Shown: positions 8,604 to 63,333 of the stretch, piece by piece
Layout: the number at the start of each line of letters is the position of its first letter
Position numbering within the stretch: position 1 is the first letter of the stretch
Source of the DNA: Salinimicrobium sediminilitoris
GTDB lineage: Bacteria > Bacteroidota > Bacteroidia > Flavobacteriales > Flavobacteriaceae
NCBI RefSeq assembly: GCF_020866905.1
Contig: NZ_JAIVCC010000005.1
Location: forward strand, 608,088 to 672,087
Direction of reading: 5' to 3'
Length of the DNA: 64,000 bases
Made by a program: the position numbers and the translations under genes
The notes under the pieces: generated by a model
The model's input: only the letters and a program-made list of their open reading frames with translations
Database searches by the model: none
Told to the model about the DNA's origin: nothing

Positions 8604-8763
8604 TTTGGGCTAAAGCCCTTTTTGTTTCTTCTTTTTTTTACCACCTAAAGGTGGTGGCAATTTAAGTTAGCCATTTAAAGATGGATAATTAATAACCATG
8701 AATTGCCGCCGGCTGTAGCCGGCGGATGCAGAGAACAAAATCTCCCAAGGCTTTAGCCAAATT
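8604..8763. repeat. solitary unit of the GGGCTAAAGCCC hairpin repeat family
   Basis: Non-coding segment with five consecutive small hairpins: GGGCTAAAGCCC (8607-8618), ACCACCTAAAGGTGGT (8640-8655), CCATTTAAAGATGG (8671-8684), CCGCCGGCTGTAGCCGGCGG (8706-8725) and GGCTTTAGCC (8749-8758). Order and spacer words (GGCAATT after the second, GAATTG before the fourth) match the big tandem array at 59.7-61.6 kb. Stem sequences differ but still pair, so the hairpins rather than the exact bases are kept. The outer two hairpins are related to each other as an inverted repeat. Confidence 0.75.
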
Positions 8764-54165: not shown

Positions 54166-54195
54166 GCTGTGCGAAGTCTCCAGACTTCGCACAGC
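54166..54195. repeat. REP palindrome left of the RAYT gene
   Basis: GCTGTGCGAAGTC (54166-54178), loop TCCA, GACTTCGCACAGC (54183-54195): a 13-bp perfect hairpin. It is the same core and loop as the cluster at 51683-51726. Its right arm runs straight into the 12-bp tandem array. Confidence 0.85.
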
Positions 54196-54355
54196 TTCAC
54201 GCACAGCTTCACGCACAGCTTCACGCACAGCTTCACGCACAGCTTCACGCACAGCTTCACGCACAGCTTCACGCACAGCTTCACGCACAGCTTCACGCAC
54301 AGCTTCACGCACAGCTTCACGCACAGCTTCACGCACAGCTTCACGCACAGCTTCA
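54189..54355. repeat. 12-bp tandem array GCACAGCTTCAC, 14 copies
   Basis: Fourteen head-to-tail copies, the last 11 of 12 nt, without visible mismatches. The unit is the outer part of the REP right arm (GCACAGC) plus TTCAC. The array ends 22 bp before the RAYT start codon. The apparent ORFs through it are a by-product of a 12-nt period without stop codons. Confidence 0.92.
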
Positions 54356-54377: not shown

Positions 54378-54977
54378 GTGAAAGCAGGCTATATTATAAA
54401 AGATCAATCCAGACCTCATTTTTTAACAGCAACAGTTGTAGACTGGGTTGATATATTCAGCAGGCAAATTTACAGGGATTGCATCCTTGACAGCCTTACT
54501 TATTGTGTGCAGAATAAAGGGATGGTAGTTTATGGTTATGTTATAATGACCAATCACATTCATCTCATCATAAAATCTGAAAAAGGGGAGTTGTCAAATC
54601 TGCTAAGGGATTTCAAAAAGTTTACTGCCACAAAGATCCTGGAGCATCTTCAAAATTGTGGGGAAAGCAGAAGAGAATGGATCCTGGAGAGACTGGCACT
54701 AACTACTCTGACCCATAGCAGAAACAAGAACTATCAGGTTTGGAAGTACGGCAACCACCCCGAAGAAATTTACAGCTCAAAATTCTTGTGGTCAAAACTG
54801 GATTATATTCATCTGAATCCCGTACGCGCTGGTTTTGTGAGTCGTGCTTCACATTACACGTATTCCAGTGCTTCGAATTACGTAAATGGCAAAGGAATAT
54901 TTGAGCATGTAACCCTGGCCGACAATCACGTTTCCAATTTGGTAATGCACCAAAGAATAAGAGATAAATATTACTAG
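54378..54977 (+). CDS. REP-associated tyrosine transposase (RAYT, Y1_Tnp/IS200-like)
   Basis: 199 residues. HUH motif NHIHLII (His60, His62) after VYGYVIMT, the DFKKFTATKIL helix near 79-88, and LDYIHLNPVRAGFV (141-154), the RAYT hallmark carrying the catalytic Tyr (Y143, equivalent to Y115 of E. coli TnpA-REP). It is a single-strand DNA nickase that recognises REP hairpins. REP palindromes lie on both sides, as in other RAYT systems. Unlike IS200 elements no transposon ends are evident, so it is probably a domesticated, REP-spreading enzyme. Confidence 0.9.
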   Translation: MKAGYIIKDQSRPHFLTATVVDWVDIFSRQIYRDCILDSLTYCVQNKGMVVYGYVIMTNHIHLIIKSEKGELSNLLRDFKKFTATKILEHLQNCGESRREWILERLALTTLTHSRNKNYQVWKYGNHPEEIYSSKFLWSKLDYIHLNPVRAGFVSRASHYTYSSASNYVNGKGIFEHVTLADNHVSNLVMHQRIRDKYY

Positions 54978-54990
54978 GTGTGTTTAACTG

Positions 54991-55037
54991 CTGTGCGAAG
55001 TCAACTGCTGTGCGAAGTCTCCAGATTTCGCACAGCC
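54991..55037. repeat. REP pair right of the RAYT gene
   Basis: One single arm GCTGTGCGAAGTC (54991-55003), then a palindrome at 55008-55037: GCTGTGCGAAGTC, TCCA, GATTTCGCACAGC (one mismatched pair). It begins 14 bp after the RAYT stop codon. The order single arm then full hairpin repeats that of the 51.65-51.73 kb cluster. Confidence 0.85.
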
Positions 55038-58940: not shown

Positions 58941-59717
58941 ATGGAACAGCAGGCGATACTTGTTTATGACGGGACCATGGAAGGTTTTCTTTGTTGCCTG
59001 TTCACAGCCTACGAAGAAAAGTTGAAGGTGGTGGATATAAATCCGCCGGGAGCACAGGCCGGGCAACAGTTGTTCACAGCATCCCGGGAGGTGATCACAG
59101 AACCCGATAAAGCCAAACGCGTATGGACTTCCTTGAAGAAGAAAGCCTCACCCGCCGGACTGCGGGATCTAAAATGGACATTTTTGAGTGAAATTCCGGG
59201 GATGGAGATGCACATGTACAGCATGATACGTTACATCCTTGCCGAAAATGTGCCGGTGGACCGGGATTTTTCCCATCCCGCGGTACTTAAAGTTTCTCAG
59301 GCGGCCAAAAAAGTGGGTCGGGAGAAACATCGCATGGAGGCATTTGTTCGCTTTAGGCTAACCAAAGATGAGGTTTATTTTGCGGCCATAGAACCCGATT
59401 TCAACGTGCTGCCGCTCATAAAAAGCCATTTTAAGAACCGGTATGCCGATCAAAAGTGGATCATCTATGATTTAAAACGGAATTTCGGAATAGCTTATGA
59501 TCTTTCAGCCGTACAATTTATTACTCTGGATCTTGATCCCGCGATTGGCCTCTCCGGCGCGCCGGAGGCTTATTTTCACTCTTCAGAAATAGCTTTTCAG
59601 AAGTTGTGGGATCAGTACTTCACCAGTACCAACATCAAAAGCAGGGCAAATCAAAAACTGCATGTGCAGCACCTTCCCAAGCGGTACTGGAAATATCTTA
59701 CGGAAAAGAACCTTTAA
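58941..59717 (+). CDS. DUF4130 family probable DNA-metabolism protein
   Basis: 258 residues. The N-terminus AILVYDGTMEGFLCCLFTAYEEK and the later MEAFVRFRLTKDEVYFAAIEPDFNVLPLI are the family pattern; KWIIYDLKRNFGIAYD follows. It is the standard partner of the radical SAM protein upstream, with zero spacing between the genes. In some bacteria it is fused to a uracil-DNA glycosylase domain, which is absent here. Proposed role: repair or modification of DNA bases; mechanism unknown. Confidence 0.88.
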   Translation: MEQQAILVYDGTMEGFLCCLFTAYEEKLKVVDINPPGAQAGQQLFTASREVITEPDKAKRVWTSLKKKASPAGLRDLKWTFLSEIPGMEMHMYSMIRYILAENVPVDRDFSHPAVLKVSQAAKKVGREKHRMEAFVRFRLTKDEVYFAAIEPDFNVLPLIKSHFKNRYADQKWIIYDLKRNFGIAYDLSAVQFITLDLDPAIGLSGAPEAYFHSSEIAFQKLWDQYFTSTNIKSRANQKLHVQHLPKRYWKYLTEKNL

Positions 59718-59718
59718 A

Positions 59719-61558
59719 AATGGCATTTTCATTCTTCTAACATTCAAGTGATAAAGATGAATTGCCACTGGCTTCAGCCAGTGGTTTAAAGAAGAGGTGA
59801 GATCAGGGCTTTAGCTCAAATTTCGGGGTTGTATATAAAAGGAACTGATGGAATAGGGGAAACTCCATTGGGCTAAAGCCCTATCTATCTTTATTTCATT
59901 AAATCCTCCGCCTAAAGGCGAAGGCAATTAAAGTCTCATCAGCATTCATTCTGAATATTTCCATTCTTCTACCATTCAAATGGTACAAATGAACTGCCAC
60001 TGGCTTTAGTCAGTGGTTTAAAGAAGAGGTGAAATTAAGGCTTTAGCCCAAATTTCGGGTTGTATATAAAAGGAGCTGATGGAATAGGGGAAACTCTATT
60101 GGGCTAAAGCCCTATTTATCTTTAATTTCATTAAATCCTCCGCCTAAAGGCGAAGTCAATTAAAGTCTCATCACCATTCATTCTGAATATTTCCATTCTT
60201 CTGTCATTCAAATGGTACAAATGAACTGCCACTGGCTTTAGTCAGTGGTTTAAAGAAGAGGTGAAATTAAGGCTTTAGCCCAAATTTCTGAATGGTTTAT
60301 AAAAGGAGCTGATGGAATAGGGACAACCCATTGGGCTAAAGCCCTATCTATCTTTATTTCATTAAATCCTCCGCCTAAAGGCGAAGGCAATTAAAGTCTC
60401 ATCACCATTCATTCTGAATATTTCCATTCTTCTACCATTCAAATGGTACAAATGAATTGCCACTGGCTTTAGTCAGTGGTTTAAAGAAGAGGTAAAATCA
60501 GGGCTTTAGCCCAAACTTCGGGGTGGTATGTAAAAGGAGCTGATGGAATAGGGGAAACTCCATTGGGCTAAAGCCCTATCTATCTTTTATTTCATTAAAT
60601 CCTCCGCCTAAAGGCGGAGGCAATTTAAGTCTCATCACTATTCATTCTGAATATTTTCATTCTTCCAGCATTCAAATTGTACAGATGAATTGCCACTGGC
60701 TTGAGCCAGTGGTTTAAAGAAGAGGTGAAATCAGGGCTTTAGCCAAAACTTCGGGGTTGTATTTAAAAGGAGCTGATGGAATAGGGGAGCCTTTATTGGG
60801 CTAAAGCCCTATCTATCTTTATTTCATTAAATCCTCCGCCTAAAGGCGAAGGCAATTTAAGTCTCATCACCATTCATTCTGAATATTTCCATTCTTCTGT
60901 CATTCAAATGGTACAAATGAACTGCCACTGGCTTTAGTCAGTGGTTTAAAGAAGAGGTGAAATTAAGGCTTTAGCCCAAATTTCGGGGTTGTATGTAAAA
61001 GGAGCTGATGGAATAGGGGAGCCTTTATTGGGCTAAAGCCCTACTTATCTTTAATTTCATTAAATCCTCCGCCTAAAGGCGAAGGCAATTAAAGTCTCAT
61101 CACCATTCATTCTGAATATTTCCATTCTTCTACCATTCAAATTGTACAGATGAATTGCCACTGGCTTCAGCCAGTGGTTTAAAGAAGAGGTGAAATCAGG
61201 GCTTTAGCCCAAACTTCGGGGTTGTATGTAAAAGGAGCTGATGGAATAGGGTAGCCTTTATTGGGCTAAAGCCCTATTTATCTTTAATTTCATTAAATCC
61301 TCCGCCTAAAGGCGGAGGCAATTCAAGTCTCATCACTATTCATTCTGAATATTTTCATTCTTCTACCATTTAAATTGTACAGATGAATTGCCACTGGCTT
61401 GAGCCAGTGGTTTAAAGAAGAGGTGAAATCAGGGCTTTAGCCCAAATTTCGGGGTTGTATATAAAAGGAACTGATGGAATAGGGGAAACTCCATTGGGCT
61501 AAGGCCCTATCTATCTTTTATTTCATTAAATCCTCCGCCTAAAGGCGAAGGCAATTCA
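59719..61558. repeat. tandem array of eight ~232-bp hairpin-rich units
   Basis: The hairpin CCACTGGC..GCCAGTGG starts at 59765, 59997, 60229, 60460, 60693, 60925, 61158 and 61391, a period of 231-233 bp. Each unit also has AGGGCTTTAGCCCAA, TTGGGCTAAAGCCCT (exact reverse complements about 50 bp apart), CGCCTAAAGGCG, and in several units ACCATTCAAATGGT. No ORF of gene size crosses it. Three subtypes by hairpin loop: TTCA (units 1, 7), TTTA with one mismatch in the stem (2, 3, 4, 6), TTGA (5, 8). It resembles the solitary copy at 8.6 kb. Confidence 0.92.
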
Positions 61559-61968
61559 CAGAAAATAAAAAAACAACATTCTAGTTCTAAAGATTCTTTT
61601 CTTTCTATGATTAGAACCTGAAACTCCCGAAGCTTCGGGACAGGTTGACCGAATCAAAGAACCTTCAGAAATGCTATTTTTGGGAGGTAAGGTTGTAAAC
61701 CAACTTCATTCTGAATTTACTTCAGAGTTACTTTGATCTGCTCTTCGGAATAAAGAAGAACCTGAAACTCCCGAAGCGTCGGGACAGGTTGACGGGAAAA
61801 AACCTTCAGAAATGATATTTTTGAGATGTAAGGCTGTAAACTGACGTCATTCTGAATTTATTTCAGAATCCATTTTAGAGCGATATGTAATTCAGACATT
61901 TATGACCTGATTAAAATCATGTTATAAACAAGATAAGCCTGTTACTTTTGCGATCTAAATAAAGAGGT
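61559..61968. other. gap before hemN with a 110-bp direct repeat
   Basis: Two imperfect copies of about 112 bp (61613-61727 and 61757-61868). Each starts AGAACCTGAAACTCCCGAAG, contains the hairpin CCCGAAGCTTCGGG (one base changed in copy 2) and ends with TTCATTCTGAATTT-like words. No gene. The last 50 bp hold the hemN promoter. Confidence 0.7.
61943..61950 (+). promoter_or_regulatory. -7 box of hemN
   Basis: TACTTTTG matches TANNTTTG and lies 18 bp before the ATG. No clear -33 TTTG at the usual distance; an activator could be needed. Confidence 0.5.
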
Positions 61969-63333
61969 ATGAGCACATCTTTGATTCAGAAATACAACGT
62001 TCCCGGCCCCAGGTATACCAGTTATCCCACGGTGCCGTACTGGAATGAAGCCGCATTTACGGTAGAACAATATAAAGAGACGCTAAAAAAGTCATTTTTG
62101 GAGAGCAATAGCAAGGAGGGGATTAGTATTTACATTCACCTGCCTTTTTGCGAGAGCCTTTGTACTTTTTGCGGCTGCAACAAACGTATTACCAAACGCC
62201 ATGAAGTGGAGTCGCCGTACATCGCTGCGGTGCTCGAGGAGTGGGACATGTATGTGAACCTGCTGGAGGAAAAGCCGGTGATTAAGGAGATACATCTGGG
62301 TGGAGGAACACCCACGTTCTTTTCTCCCGCAAATCTTAAGATCCTTCTCGACGGACTTTTCGAAAAAGCTGTGCGGGCAGAGGAAACCGATTTTAGCTTT
62401 GAAGGCCACCCCAACAACACCAAACAGGAGCACCTGCAGTTGCTTTATGACCTGGGCTTTGAGAGGGTGAGTTACGGGGTTCAGGATTATAATTTTGAGG
62501 TGCAGCGGGCTATTCACAGGTTTCAGCCTTTTGTGAATGTGAAAAATGCTACTGAAGGGGCCCGCGAAATTGGCTACACTTCTGTGGGTCACGATCTTAT
62601 TTTTGGTCTGCCTTTTCAAACCGTAGATCACATTCGGGAAACCATTGAAAAGACCAAAGAGCTGATGCCGGACAGGATCGCGTTTTACAGCTACGCCCAT
62701 GTGCCCTGGATCAAAGGAAACGGGCAGCGCGGCTTTAAGGAGGAAGATCTGCCTTCGGCCGATGTGAAGCGGGAGATGTATGAAGTGGGGAAACAACTGC
62801 TCGCCGAAGCCGGTTATGTGGAAGTGGGCATGGACCATTTTGCACTAAAGAGCGATACGCTTTATAAGGCCATGGAGAACCACAAGCTGCACCGTAACTT
62901 TATGGGCTACACTTCTTCCAAGACCAAAGTGATGATAGGTTTGGGAGTTTCGGCTATTAGTGACAGCTGGAGCGGTTTCGCCCAGAATGTCAAGACCATT
63001 GAAGAATATTACGAGATCCTTGAAAAAGGAGAACTGCCTCTTTACCGCGGACATATTCTTACTGCGGAAGACGAGAAACTCCGCCAGCACATTCTAAATC
63101 TCATGTGCAACCTGGAAACTTCCTGGAAAGATGACGACATGAAATTCCCCGAACTTCCTGAAGTCCTCATCAACCTGAAAGAAATGGAAGCCGATGGTCT
63201 CCTGGAATTCGGGGATGAAAAATTGATCATCAAAGAATCGGGAAGACCTTTTGTTCGAAATATTTGTATGGCTTTTGACCTGTTGCTGCAAAGAAGCAAA
63301 CCGGAGACGAGATTGTTTTCTATGACGGTTTAG
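61969..63333 (+). CDS. hemN: oxygen-independent coproporphyrinogen III oxidase
   Basis: 454 residues. The radical SAM motif with the HemN-specific fourth Cys is HLPFCESLCTFCGC (C61, C65, C68, C70). The Tyr/Gly-rich N-terminus PRYTSYPTVPYW and the segment HLGGGTPTFFSPANL are diagnostic, and the C-terminal HemN domain is complete. It oxidatively decarboxylates coproporphyrinogen III to protoporphyrinogen IX without oxygen. It stands alone with its own promoter. Confidence 0.96.
   Translation: MSTSLIQKYNVPGPRYTSYPTVPYWNEAAFTVEQYKETLKKSFLESNSKEGISIYIHLPFCESLCTFCGCNKRITKRHEVESPYIAAVLEEWDMYVNLLEEKPVIKEIHLGGGTPTFFSPANLKILLDGLFEKAVRAEETDFSFEGHPNNTKQEHLQLLYDLGFERVSYGVQDYNFEVQRAIHRFQPFVNVKNATEGAREIGYTSVGHDLIFGLPFQTVDHIRETIEKTKELMPDRIAFYSYAHVPWIKGNGQRGFKEEDLPSADVKREMYEVGKQLLAEAGYVEVGMDHFALKSDTLYKAMENHKLHRNFMGYTSSKTKVMIGLGVSAISDSWSGFAQNVKTIEEYYEILEKGELPLYRGHILTAEDEKLRQHILNLMCNLETSWKDDDMKFPELPEVLINLKEMEADGLLEFGDEKLIIKESGRPFVRNICMAFDLLLQRSKPETRLFSMTV

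Follow-up and report, generated by a model that had tools for sequence, protein, structure and literature searches.

The window analysed here is a stretch of 64,000 nucleotides from Salinimicrobium sediminilitoris (C10:608088-672087 of a 3.59 Mb genome in 18 contigs). Between a TIGR03915 gene and hemN, it holds a tandem array of hairpin-bearing repeats that begins 8 bp past the TIGR03915 stop codon. TRF reported a single array of 7.9 copies with a period of 233 at 59725-61556 (score 2999), and also a period of 465 bp that scored slightly higher (3058). Unit borders were set by cutting the array at CATTCTTC, and alignment of the resulting eight units gave 87-96% identity over 210 common alignment columns. 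The initial annotation had described a gene-free array of eight 232-bp units. TRF and the alignment confirmed both the array and its eight units, and the length fits seven of them (231-233 bp) but not the last, which is 205 bp. The only open reading frame (ORF) of at least 60 aa that overlaps the array (59583-59768, minus strand) lies at its left edge. A search of 59000-62200 against Rfam gave chance-level hits (the best, MIR159, reached 25 bits where the gathering score is 74), and an Rfam identity was rejected. The coordinates of the features are collected in Table 1.

Table 1. Array units, the hairpins of unit 1 and a dispersed element of the same family, in window coordinates.
Feature	Position	Strand	Evidence and context
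Tandem array, 8 units	59726..61556	.	TRF, unit alignment; between TIGR03915 gene (58941-59717) and hemN (61969-63333)
Unit 1	59726..59957	+	Unit alignment
Unit 2	59958..60189	+	Unit alignment
Unit 3	60190..60420	+	Unit alignment
Unit 4	60421..60653	+	Unit alignment
Unit 5	60654..60885	+	Unit alignment
Unit 6	60886..61118	+	Unit alignment
Unit 7	61119..61351	+	Unit alignment
Unit 8, without the 28-bp inter-unit linker	61352..61556	+	Unit alignment
Unit 1 tag GAATTG, 5' foot of hairpin B'	59759..59764	+	Sequence; tag statistics
Unit 1 hairpin B', 8-bp stem, TTCA loop	59765..59784	+	Sequence; covariation
Unit 1 hairpin A', one letter off: GGGCTTTAGCTC	59806..59817	+	Sequence
Unit 1 hairpin A, GGGC-TAAA-GCCC	59870..59881	+	Sequence
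Unit 1 hairpin B, CCTCCGCC-TAAA-GGCGAAGG, then CAATT (59925-59929)	59905..59924	+	Sequence; model R1
Half-unit A-B of dispersed inverted-pair element	8606..8663 (G000:C10:616693-616750)	+	R1 match; orthologue in G011, G003
Half-unit B'-A' of same dispersed element	8700..8760 (G000:C10:616787-616847)	-	R1 match; compensatory stem change vs G011, G003

Each unit comprises two half-units in inverted orientation, in the order B'-A'-(about 50 bp)-A-B. In a half-unit, a spacer of 20-25 nt separates a short hairpin, A (GGGC-TAAA-GCCC), from hairpin B, which has an 8-bp stem and an ATTG tag at its 5' foot. In the array, the A-B half reads GGGC-TAAA-GCCC, spacer, CCTCCGCC-TAAA-GGCGGAGG-CAATT, with GGCGAAGG as the second arm in many units. 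The B'-A' half is its inverted counterpart but has another B stem (CCACTGGC); read in the opposite orientation, hairpin B is immediately preceded at the 5' foot by the tag GAATTG and has a TTCA or TTTA loop. Of the four to five hairpins described earlier as having a fixed order, B', A', A and B do recur in that order, while the fifth (around CCATTCAAATGG) is intact only in units 2 and 4. Similarly, the two GGGCTTTAGCCC-type hairpins had been called exact inverted copies of each other, which is true of units 4 and 7, the only ones in which both A-type hairpins are intact, and not of the others, with hairpin A' altered in units 1, 2, 3, 5 and 6 and hairpin A in unit 8. The B' loop order 1-2-2-2-3-2-1-3 was given correctly (TTCA, TTTA in three units, TTGA, TTTA, TTCA, TTGA). 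Predicted folds of all eight units reach -65 to -77 kcal/mol (values without a shuffle control).

Two other palindromic sequences were seen at the edges of the array. A near-palindrome of the type AAATGNCATTTT, often followed by TGAGAGGT, lies at the left edge (window 59717-59729); similar forms stand at the same place in the genus genomes G004, G009, G010 and G011, occur in L032 and L040, and adjoin several other elements. Just past the array are two copies of a hairpin, GAACCTGAAACTCCCGAAGC[T/G]TCGGGACAGGTTGAC (window 61614-61649 and 61758-61793), with near-identical copies in the G007, G009 and G004 stretches.

Half-units and the T1 gene in the genus

With one unit as the query, a search of the genome returned the array and weaker matches to hairpin parts, several of them on both sides of a Y1 transposase gene, T1 (C10:517877-518323, about 150 kb from the array), around which the same hairpins stand in the same order. 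The unit occurs in tandem only at the array site, and half-units are also present elsewhere in the genome. T1 is present as one gene, has half-units on both flanks and encodes a 149-aa Y1 (HUH) single-strand transposase. Four Y1 genes of the genome, T1-T4, resemble each other and encode about 150 aa each; four weaker Y1 matches are also present, and the next relative of T1 there is 38% identical. The T1 protein matches the Y1_Tnp domain and carries the motif YIKNQEEHH, that is, Y...Q..HH. NCBIfam names T1-T4 IS200/IS605 family transposases, and its REP_Tyr_transpos model scores 29.6 bits on T1, under the cut-off of 80. T1 has the HUH motif, the catalytic Tyr and the IS200 fold. The solved structures closest to its predicted structure (mean pLDDT 86) are ISDra2 and IS608 TnpA, and E. 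coli TnpAREP (4er8) ranks 30, many of these alignments having an rmsd of 5-9 Å or more. Residues H56, Q95, Y114 and Q118 are invariant in 27 aligned members.

In G000 (the genome of the window), G007, G010 (inverted) and G011, T1 sits between the same two neighbouring ORFs, which we take to be Mfd-like and a metallophosphatase, while the half-units that flank it vary in both number and order. In G011, the gene contains an internal TGA.

A regular expression found 25 half-units in the genome, of which 23 were aligned (A1) and used to build a covariance model, R1, from this genome only; two array half-units (60797-60858 and 61029-61091) were left out, and further ones that the expression had missed were later found by R1. 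Among the 23, four B-stem pairs show compensatory changes (21 cells). At E <= 0.001, R1 found 45 half-units, some of them from its own training set: 16 in the array, 5 at T1 and 24 elsewhere (36 in total under the stricter filters of the family search described below). No ORF of at least 150 aa overlaps any of the 30 half-unit loci that were examined, 16 of them in the array, 4 at T1 and 10 elsewhere.

The positions taken from the genus-wide R1 searches are among the matches listed, and the counts cover each genome completely. A T1 orthologue is present in genus genomes with 45, 24, 20 and 29 half-units, and the genomes that lack one have 2 (G001), 5 (G002), 24 (G003), 11 (G004), 10 (G005), 7 (G006), 0 and 11 (G009), two of these T1-less genomes being 75% complete or less. 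Since half-units occur in genomes without T1, the elements either outlast the gene or use another relative.

One dispersed element, at window 8606-8760, also has R1 matches at the orthologous loci of G011 and G003, and none at those of G001, G002, G004, G005, G007, G008, G009 and G010. Its B' stem differs from that of G011 and G003 by a compensatory pair, which could be due to selection or to quasipalindrome correction. Comparison of this site across the genus revealed no clean empty site with exact ends, and the ends of the element cannot be fixed because the intergenic DNA is too diverged.

The TIGR03915 gene beside the array is present in nine of the 12 genus genomes, the present one included. 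At the array site, a single unit lies between the same left and right flanks in G007, and two units are present in G010, of which the second carries an internal deletion; the stretches read in G002, G003, G004, G005, G009 and G011 gave no R1 match. With one, two and eight units at the same site, the copy number has changed locally. The origin of the 28-bp inter-unit linker was sought in the flanks in G007 and G010, where the linker is not seen. Within the array, mean identity between units stays level as they lie further apart (89.4-92.4% from lag 1 to lag 7). The four-gamete test fails for 67 of 136 pairs of biallelic informative sites, so the units are mosaics. Block duplication, which had been suggested by the order of loop subtypes, was rejected on these two grounds. 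At L040 1400-2020 (C11:655.4-656.0 kb), half-units of this family form a smaller array in direct orientation (period 143 bp, about 3 copies), broken by an N run that is probably an assembly gap inside the repeat.

Half-units beside T1 relatives in other genomes

We compared 79 loci carrying relatives of the T1-T4 alignment, taken from the best 80 of 541 confirmed relatives. These loci are mutually related, with many from Flavobacterium and Mucilaginibacter, and most are titled Bacteroidota, with a few from Verrucomicrobia, Chlorobiota, Ignavibacteriales, Fibrobacteres and Geotalea. The motif Y...Q..HH is present in 72 of the 79 relatives. Of the 105 matches that R1, built without any of these loci, gave in them, 87 fall in the 154,276 bases up to 1 kb from the gene and 18 in the other 930,765 bases, a 29-fold higher density of half-units beside the gene. 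Grouped by identity to T1, a match lies within 1 kb at 12 of 13 loci at 65% identity or more, 17 of 20 at 50-65%, 2 of 9 at 44-50% and 1 of 37 below. For the T1 clade (at least 50% identity), 29 of 33 loci thus have a near match and four have none.

The stems of these half-units covary. Among 104 distinct R1 matches, 11 of 12 stem pairs change on both sides, in 338 cells compared with at most 74 for slid partners, and 96.3% of stem cells are paired; the alignment was fitted to the structure, which favours the covariation count, and quasipalindrome correction rather than selection could be a partial source of the signal.

Hairpins were also counted independently of R1. Perfect GC-rich hairpins with a stem of at least 6 bp occur at 2.0-3.8 per kb within 500 bp of the genes (in four identity groups) compared with 0.12-0.32 beyond 2 kb. 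With a stem of at least 7 bp and a TGAA/TAAA/TTAA-type loop, 172 lie near genes and 18 far from them, and shuffled flanks gave 0.0 per kb. The loop is of the TNNA type in 171 of 178 perfect tetraloop hairpins near genes and in 18 of 55 far from them. At least one TNNA-loop hairpin with a stem of at least 7 bp lies within 500 bp of 66 of the 79 genes, and the other 13 loci have none within that distance.

The tag is one-sided. In directed 8-bp hairpins within 500 bp of genes (symmetric TTAA loops excluded), the T1 clade has NTWG at the 5' foot of 66 of 78 and on the opposite side of 6 of 78, and the other loci have it at 45 of 66 and 4 of 66, respectively. Its letters differ between the two groups: ATTG makes up 46/78 in the T1 clade and 2/66 elsewhere, ATAG 3/78 and 29/66, and the classical REP tag GTAG is found in 8/66 of the non-T1 hairpins. 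A two-state tag label on 44 of the 79 loci requires five changes on a quick, poorly resolved tree.

R1 was also run on 19 whole genomes chosen via named loci, including Salinimicrobium xinjiangense (L113) and S. sediminis (L116). All 19 contain matches (1-65 each), and half-units outnumber genes in most of them. The T1-clade gene is single in 17, double in one (G161, as close copies) and absent in one; several near-identical gene-bearing copies at different sites were thus found neither in these 17 genomes nor in the present one, with its one T1. In a family sample of 149 genomes, R1 matches occurred in four, three of which have no T1-clade gene, and the T1 clade itself was found only in the present genome.

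Among the matches listed, Flavobacterium and Mucilaginibacter have many R1 pairs in (-,+) order with a short centre. Sixteen preselected (-,+) regions from other genera are REPIN-like doublets with their tags pointing outward, two of which resemble one site in two species. The A'-A centre is 12-21 nt in 13 of the 16 under one regular expression, which two regions escaped and which misregistered one. Both pairing orders exist, A-B-B'-A' and B'-A'-A-B. We examined 15 Flavobacterium half-units (14 loci), whose hairpin identity of 98-100% is partly by construction, as they were picked by a regular expression for conserved hairpins. Their A-B spacers keep a length of 20-24 nt and have an identity of 37.8-42.2%, compared with 36.1% for shuffled letters, so the copies are old. 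Beyond the tag the 15 have little in common (44.0% identity at nt 7-18 after B). As spacer length is kept while its sequence is free, the geometry of the half-unit is suggested to matter, and it would suit one dimer on two hairpins.

The hairpin pattern has exceptions: T2, T3 and T4 belong to a 14-row clade, and no TNNA hairpin stands near the gene in 7 of its 11 other rows. T2 and T3 (L042 6114-7515, C13; L044 4614-5341, C17) adjoin paired-hairpin arrays of their own, of 106 bp x 13 and about 69-bp repeats, and the neighbourhood of T4 has no such tandem array. In G007, a gene with the same hairpins adjoins an array of 105 bp x 3. Another Y1 gene, of a different kind (L038 1465-2112, C16), stands between long hairpins, agacctcacaggtct...agacctgtgaggtct.

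Interpretation of the array

The earlier interpretation had offered three options, a REP-like or mobile element amplified in tandem, a structured RNA locus and a nucleoid- or replication-related site. It was borne out in part: the REP-like option is the best of the three, given the REPIN-like doublet, its dispersed relatives and the Y1 transposase gene that they surround, and the structured RNA and block duplication were not upheld. In our judgement, the array is probably a non-autonomous, REPIN-like element that has formed a BIME-like tandem cluster, with T1 as its likely partner, which would spread the elements. That T1 recognises and mobilises the repeats we infer from their position, the polarity of the tags, covariation and the kinship of the enzyme.

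The working unit would be the inverted pair of half-units, each with hairpin A, a 20-25 nt spacer, the 8-bp hairpin B, a TNNA tetraloop and the ATTG tag. The hairpins would fold where the element is exposed as single-stranded DNA, such as in the lagging-strand template, and T1 may bind them with the tag as a guide, by analogy with the dimeric TnpA of IS200/IS605. Cutting and rejoining beside the hairpins by T1 would then spread elements between intergenic sites. At the array site, an old single unit may have become eight through recombination between copies or repeated processing.

A different account confines itself to the array and is compatible with assigning its units to a REP-like family: a mere local tandem duplication of REP-like elements by recA-type unequal crossing-over and gene conversion, with no part for T1 and no function. 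We give this a little less than an even chance. It is favoured by the occurrence of the unit in tandem only here within the genome, by the mosaic units (four-gamete failures at 67 of 136 site pairs), and by the single unit of G007 between the same flanks, although a contraction in G007 would explain that synteny equally well. Tandem hairpin arrays also adjoin two other Y1 genes of this genome, T2 and T3, as well as several congener Y1 loci; tandem growth therefore recurs around the Y1 gene family, which argues against duplication as a matter of this site only.

The remaining alternatives concern the nature of the repeats themselves. We regard it as unlikely that T1 and its flanks form a mobile IS with ordinary IS200-type ends, of which the dispersed units would be gene-less remnants. 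The NCBIfam names of T1-T4, the location of T1 inside inverted half-units, a predicted fold nearest to ISDra2 and IS608 TnpA, and the two close gene copies of G161 are all consistent with such an IS, but a single T1-clade gene in 17 of 19 genomes, fixed neighbours in four genus genomes, half-units (1-65) that outnumber genes in most of the 19 genomes, and several half-units per gene in varying number and order among congeners are not. REP hairpins in 3' untranslated regions can stabilise or terminate the upstream mRNA, and a start 8 bp past the TIGR03915 stop codon, the lack of long-ORF overlap at all 30 half-unit loci and the compensatory B' stem change at an orthologous site would agree with units kept for such a function at the RNA level. 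That this is the reason for their retention seems quite improbable, as it leaves both the clustering around one transposase family and the one-sided tag unexplained, and hairpin B in the array precedes CAATT rather than a T run. For a structured non-coding RNA locus, such as an sRNA or riboregulator array, the stable predicted folds of the eight units (again without a shuffle control) might be cited, yet folding energy follows from the palindromes, no Rfam family comes near its gathering score, dispersed copies show no spacer conservation and both pairing orders occur; we consider this very unlikely indeed.

Comparison with known REP systems

The REPIN/BIME repeats and their RAYT/TnpAREP partners, as outlined in PMC2817692, PMC3686654 and PMC3733652, combine short palindromes tagged at the 5' side, inverted pairs facing outward, intergenic location, tandem clusters and one flanked gene. 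The array family shares the 5'-foot tag, the inverted pairs with outward tags, the intergenic location, the tandem clusters and the single flanked transposase gene. Two palindromic repeats are inverted around a short variable stretch, as in the B'A'-AB unit of the array, and one transposase gene is flanked by repeats at one site (in four genus genomes; single in 17 of 19). The REPIN/BIME tag is GTAG or GTGG, whereas here it is mostly ATTG or ATAG, so that position and polarity agree and the letters mostly do not. Further differences are the two hairpins (A and B) of the T1-clade half-unit, the enzyme, which is class 2 (Y...NP) for REPIN/BIME and class 1 (Y...Q..HH) for T1, and the hosts, mostly Bacteroidota for the T1-type system and gammaproteobacteria for REPIN/BIME. 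The array family is REPIN-like, a variant on a different transposase branch; we use this term, and not REPIN/BIME, because the system departs from two traits that define REPIN/BIME, the GTAG tag and the class 2 enzyme.

With the IS200/IS605 elements IS608 and ISDra2, T1 shares the catalytic fold and residues, and by analogy perhaps hairpin recognition. It differs from them in lacking an IS-like copy number, in its fixed site in four genus genomes and in its many gene-less repeats. In the TIRtrons/TIRYTs, as presented by Di Nocera et al. 2013 (PMC3733652, a paper that also describes GTAG REPs), Y1 genes lie in inverted repeats, some of them double palindromic, which also occur as dimers and clusters. 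The T1 system is alike in the inverted repeats that flank a Y1 gene and in the dimers and clusters across the genome. The assignments in PMC6006769 put 20 of 26 TIRYTs into subclass 2.1 and six into 2.2/2.5, and the TIRtron motif GGGGWSAS was not seen by eye in the array unit.

By its motif, rather than by a joint tree with the published set, T1 can be placed in TnpA-Y1 subclass 1.2 of Quentin et al. 2018 (PMC6006769). That subclass, described there as about 148 aa long and from Bacteroidetes/Cyanobacteria, shares with the T1 set Y...Q..HH, a length of about 148-150 aa, a mostly Bacteroidota distribution and a low copy number. Table 1 of that paper gives 'no' under REP for subclass 1.2, and the accompanying description has the subclass generally without typical terminal IS200 structures; here, TNNA hairpins lie within 500 bp of 66 of 79 such genes. 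The automatic REP search, as described in the same source, demanded a GT[AG]G tag, with some classes inspected by hand, and would therefore miss ATTG and ATAG tags. W94 and Q95 of E. coli TnpAREP are stated there to be well conserved in four REP-associated subclasses, and the residues listed in the table are WQ for subclass 1.2 and W[TS] for 1.1. Elsewhere, RAYTs by the criteria of Nunvar et al. 2010 are reported from gammaproteobacteria only, and PMC8266576 shows what RAYT REPs require of their loop and tag, with a TTTA loop in Marinomonas as one case. Among the open-licence papers listed by the literature searches, we saw none on REP-like partners of subclass 1.2 or on the present repeat in Bacteroidota.

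We lean, at somewhat better than even chances, towards a wider proposal: that subclass 1.2 serves a separate REP system across Bacteroidota, as a class-1, IS200-like and probably dimeric transposase kept at a fixed site. Its partner hairpins would have an 8-bp stem, a TNNA loop and a clade-dependent 5' NTWG tag (ATTG, ATAG or GTAG), the twin hairpins of the T1 clade, 20-25 nt apart, could be the footprint of one dimer, and tandem arrays would be among the products. If so, a REP partnership would exist in the IS200-like branch in parallel to class 2, and the 'no' entry of the published table for subclass 1.2 would be corrected. REPs and REPINs serve as a model of transposase retention by a host while the short target repeats persist, and REP-type partners in the IS200-like branch would allow the two branches to be compared for what such a partnership needs. 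The clade-specific switching of tags would then be a natural experiment on guide recognition, and the palindromic intergenic repeats of Flavobacterium, Mucilaginibacter, Salinimicrobium and relatives would gain a testable partner.

The window also holds a RAYT gene at 54378-54977 (NCBIfam REP_Tyr_transpos, 95 bits). A perfect 12-bp tandem repeat, CGCACAGCTTCA x 14, stands directly before it (54188-54355), and a related repeat, GTGCGAAG, follows it (54986-55019). The RAYT gene and the 12-bp repeats are a second REP-type system in the window.
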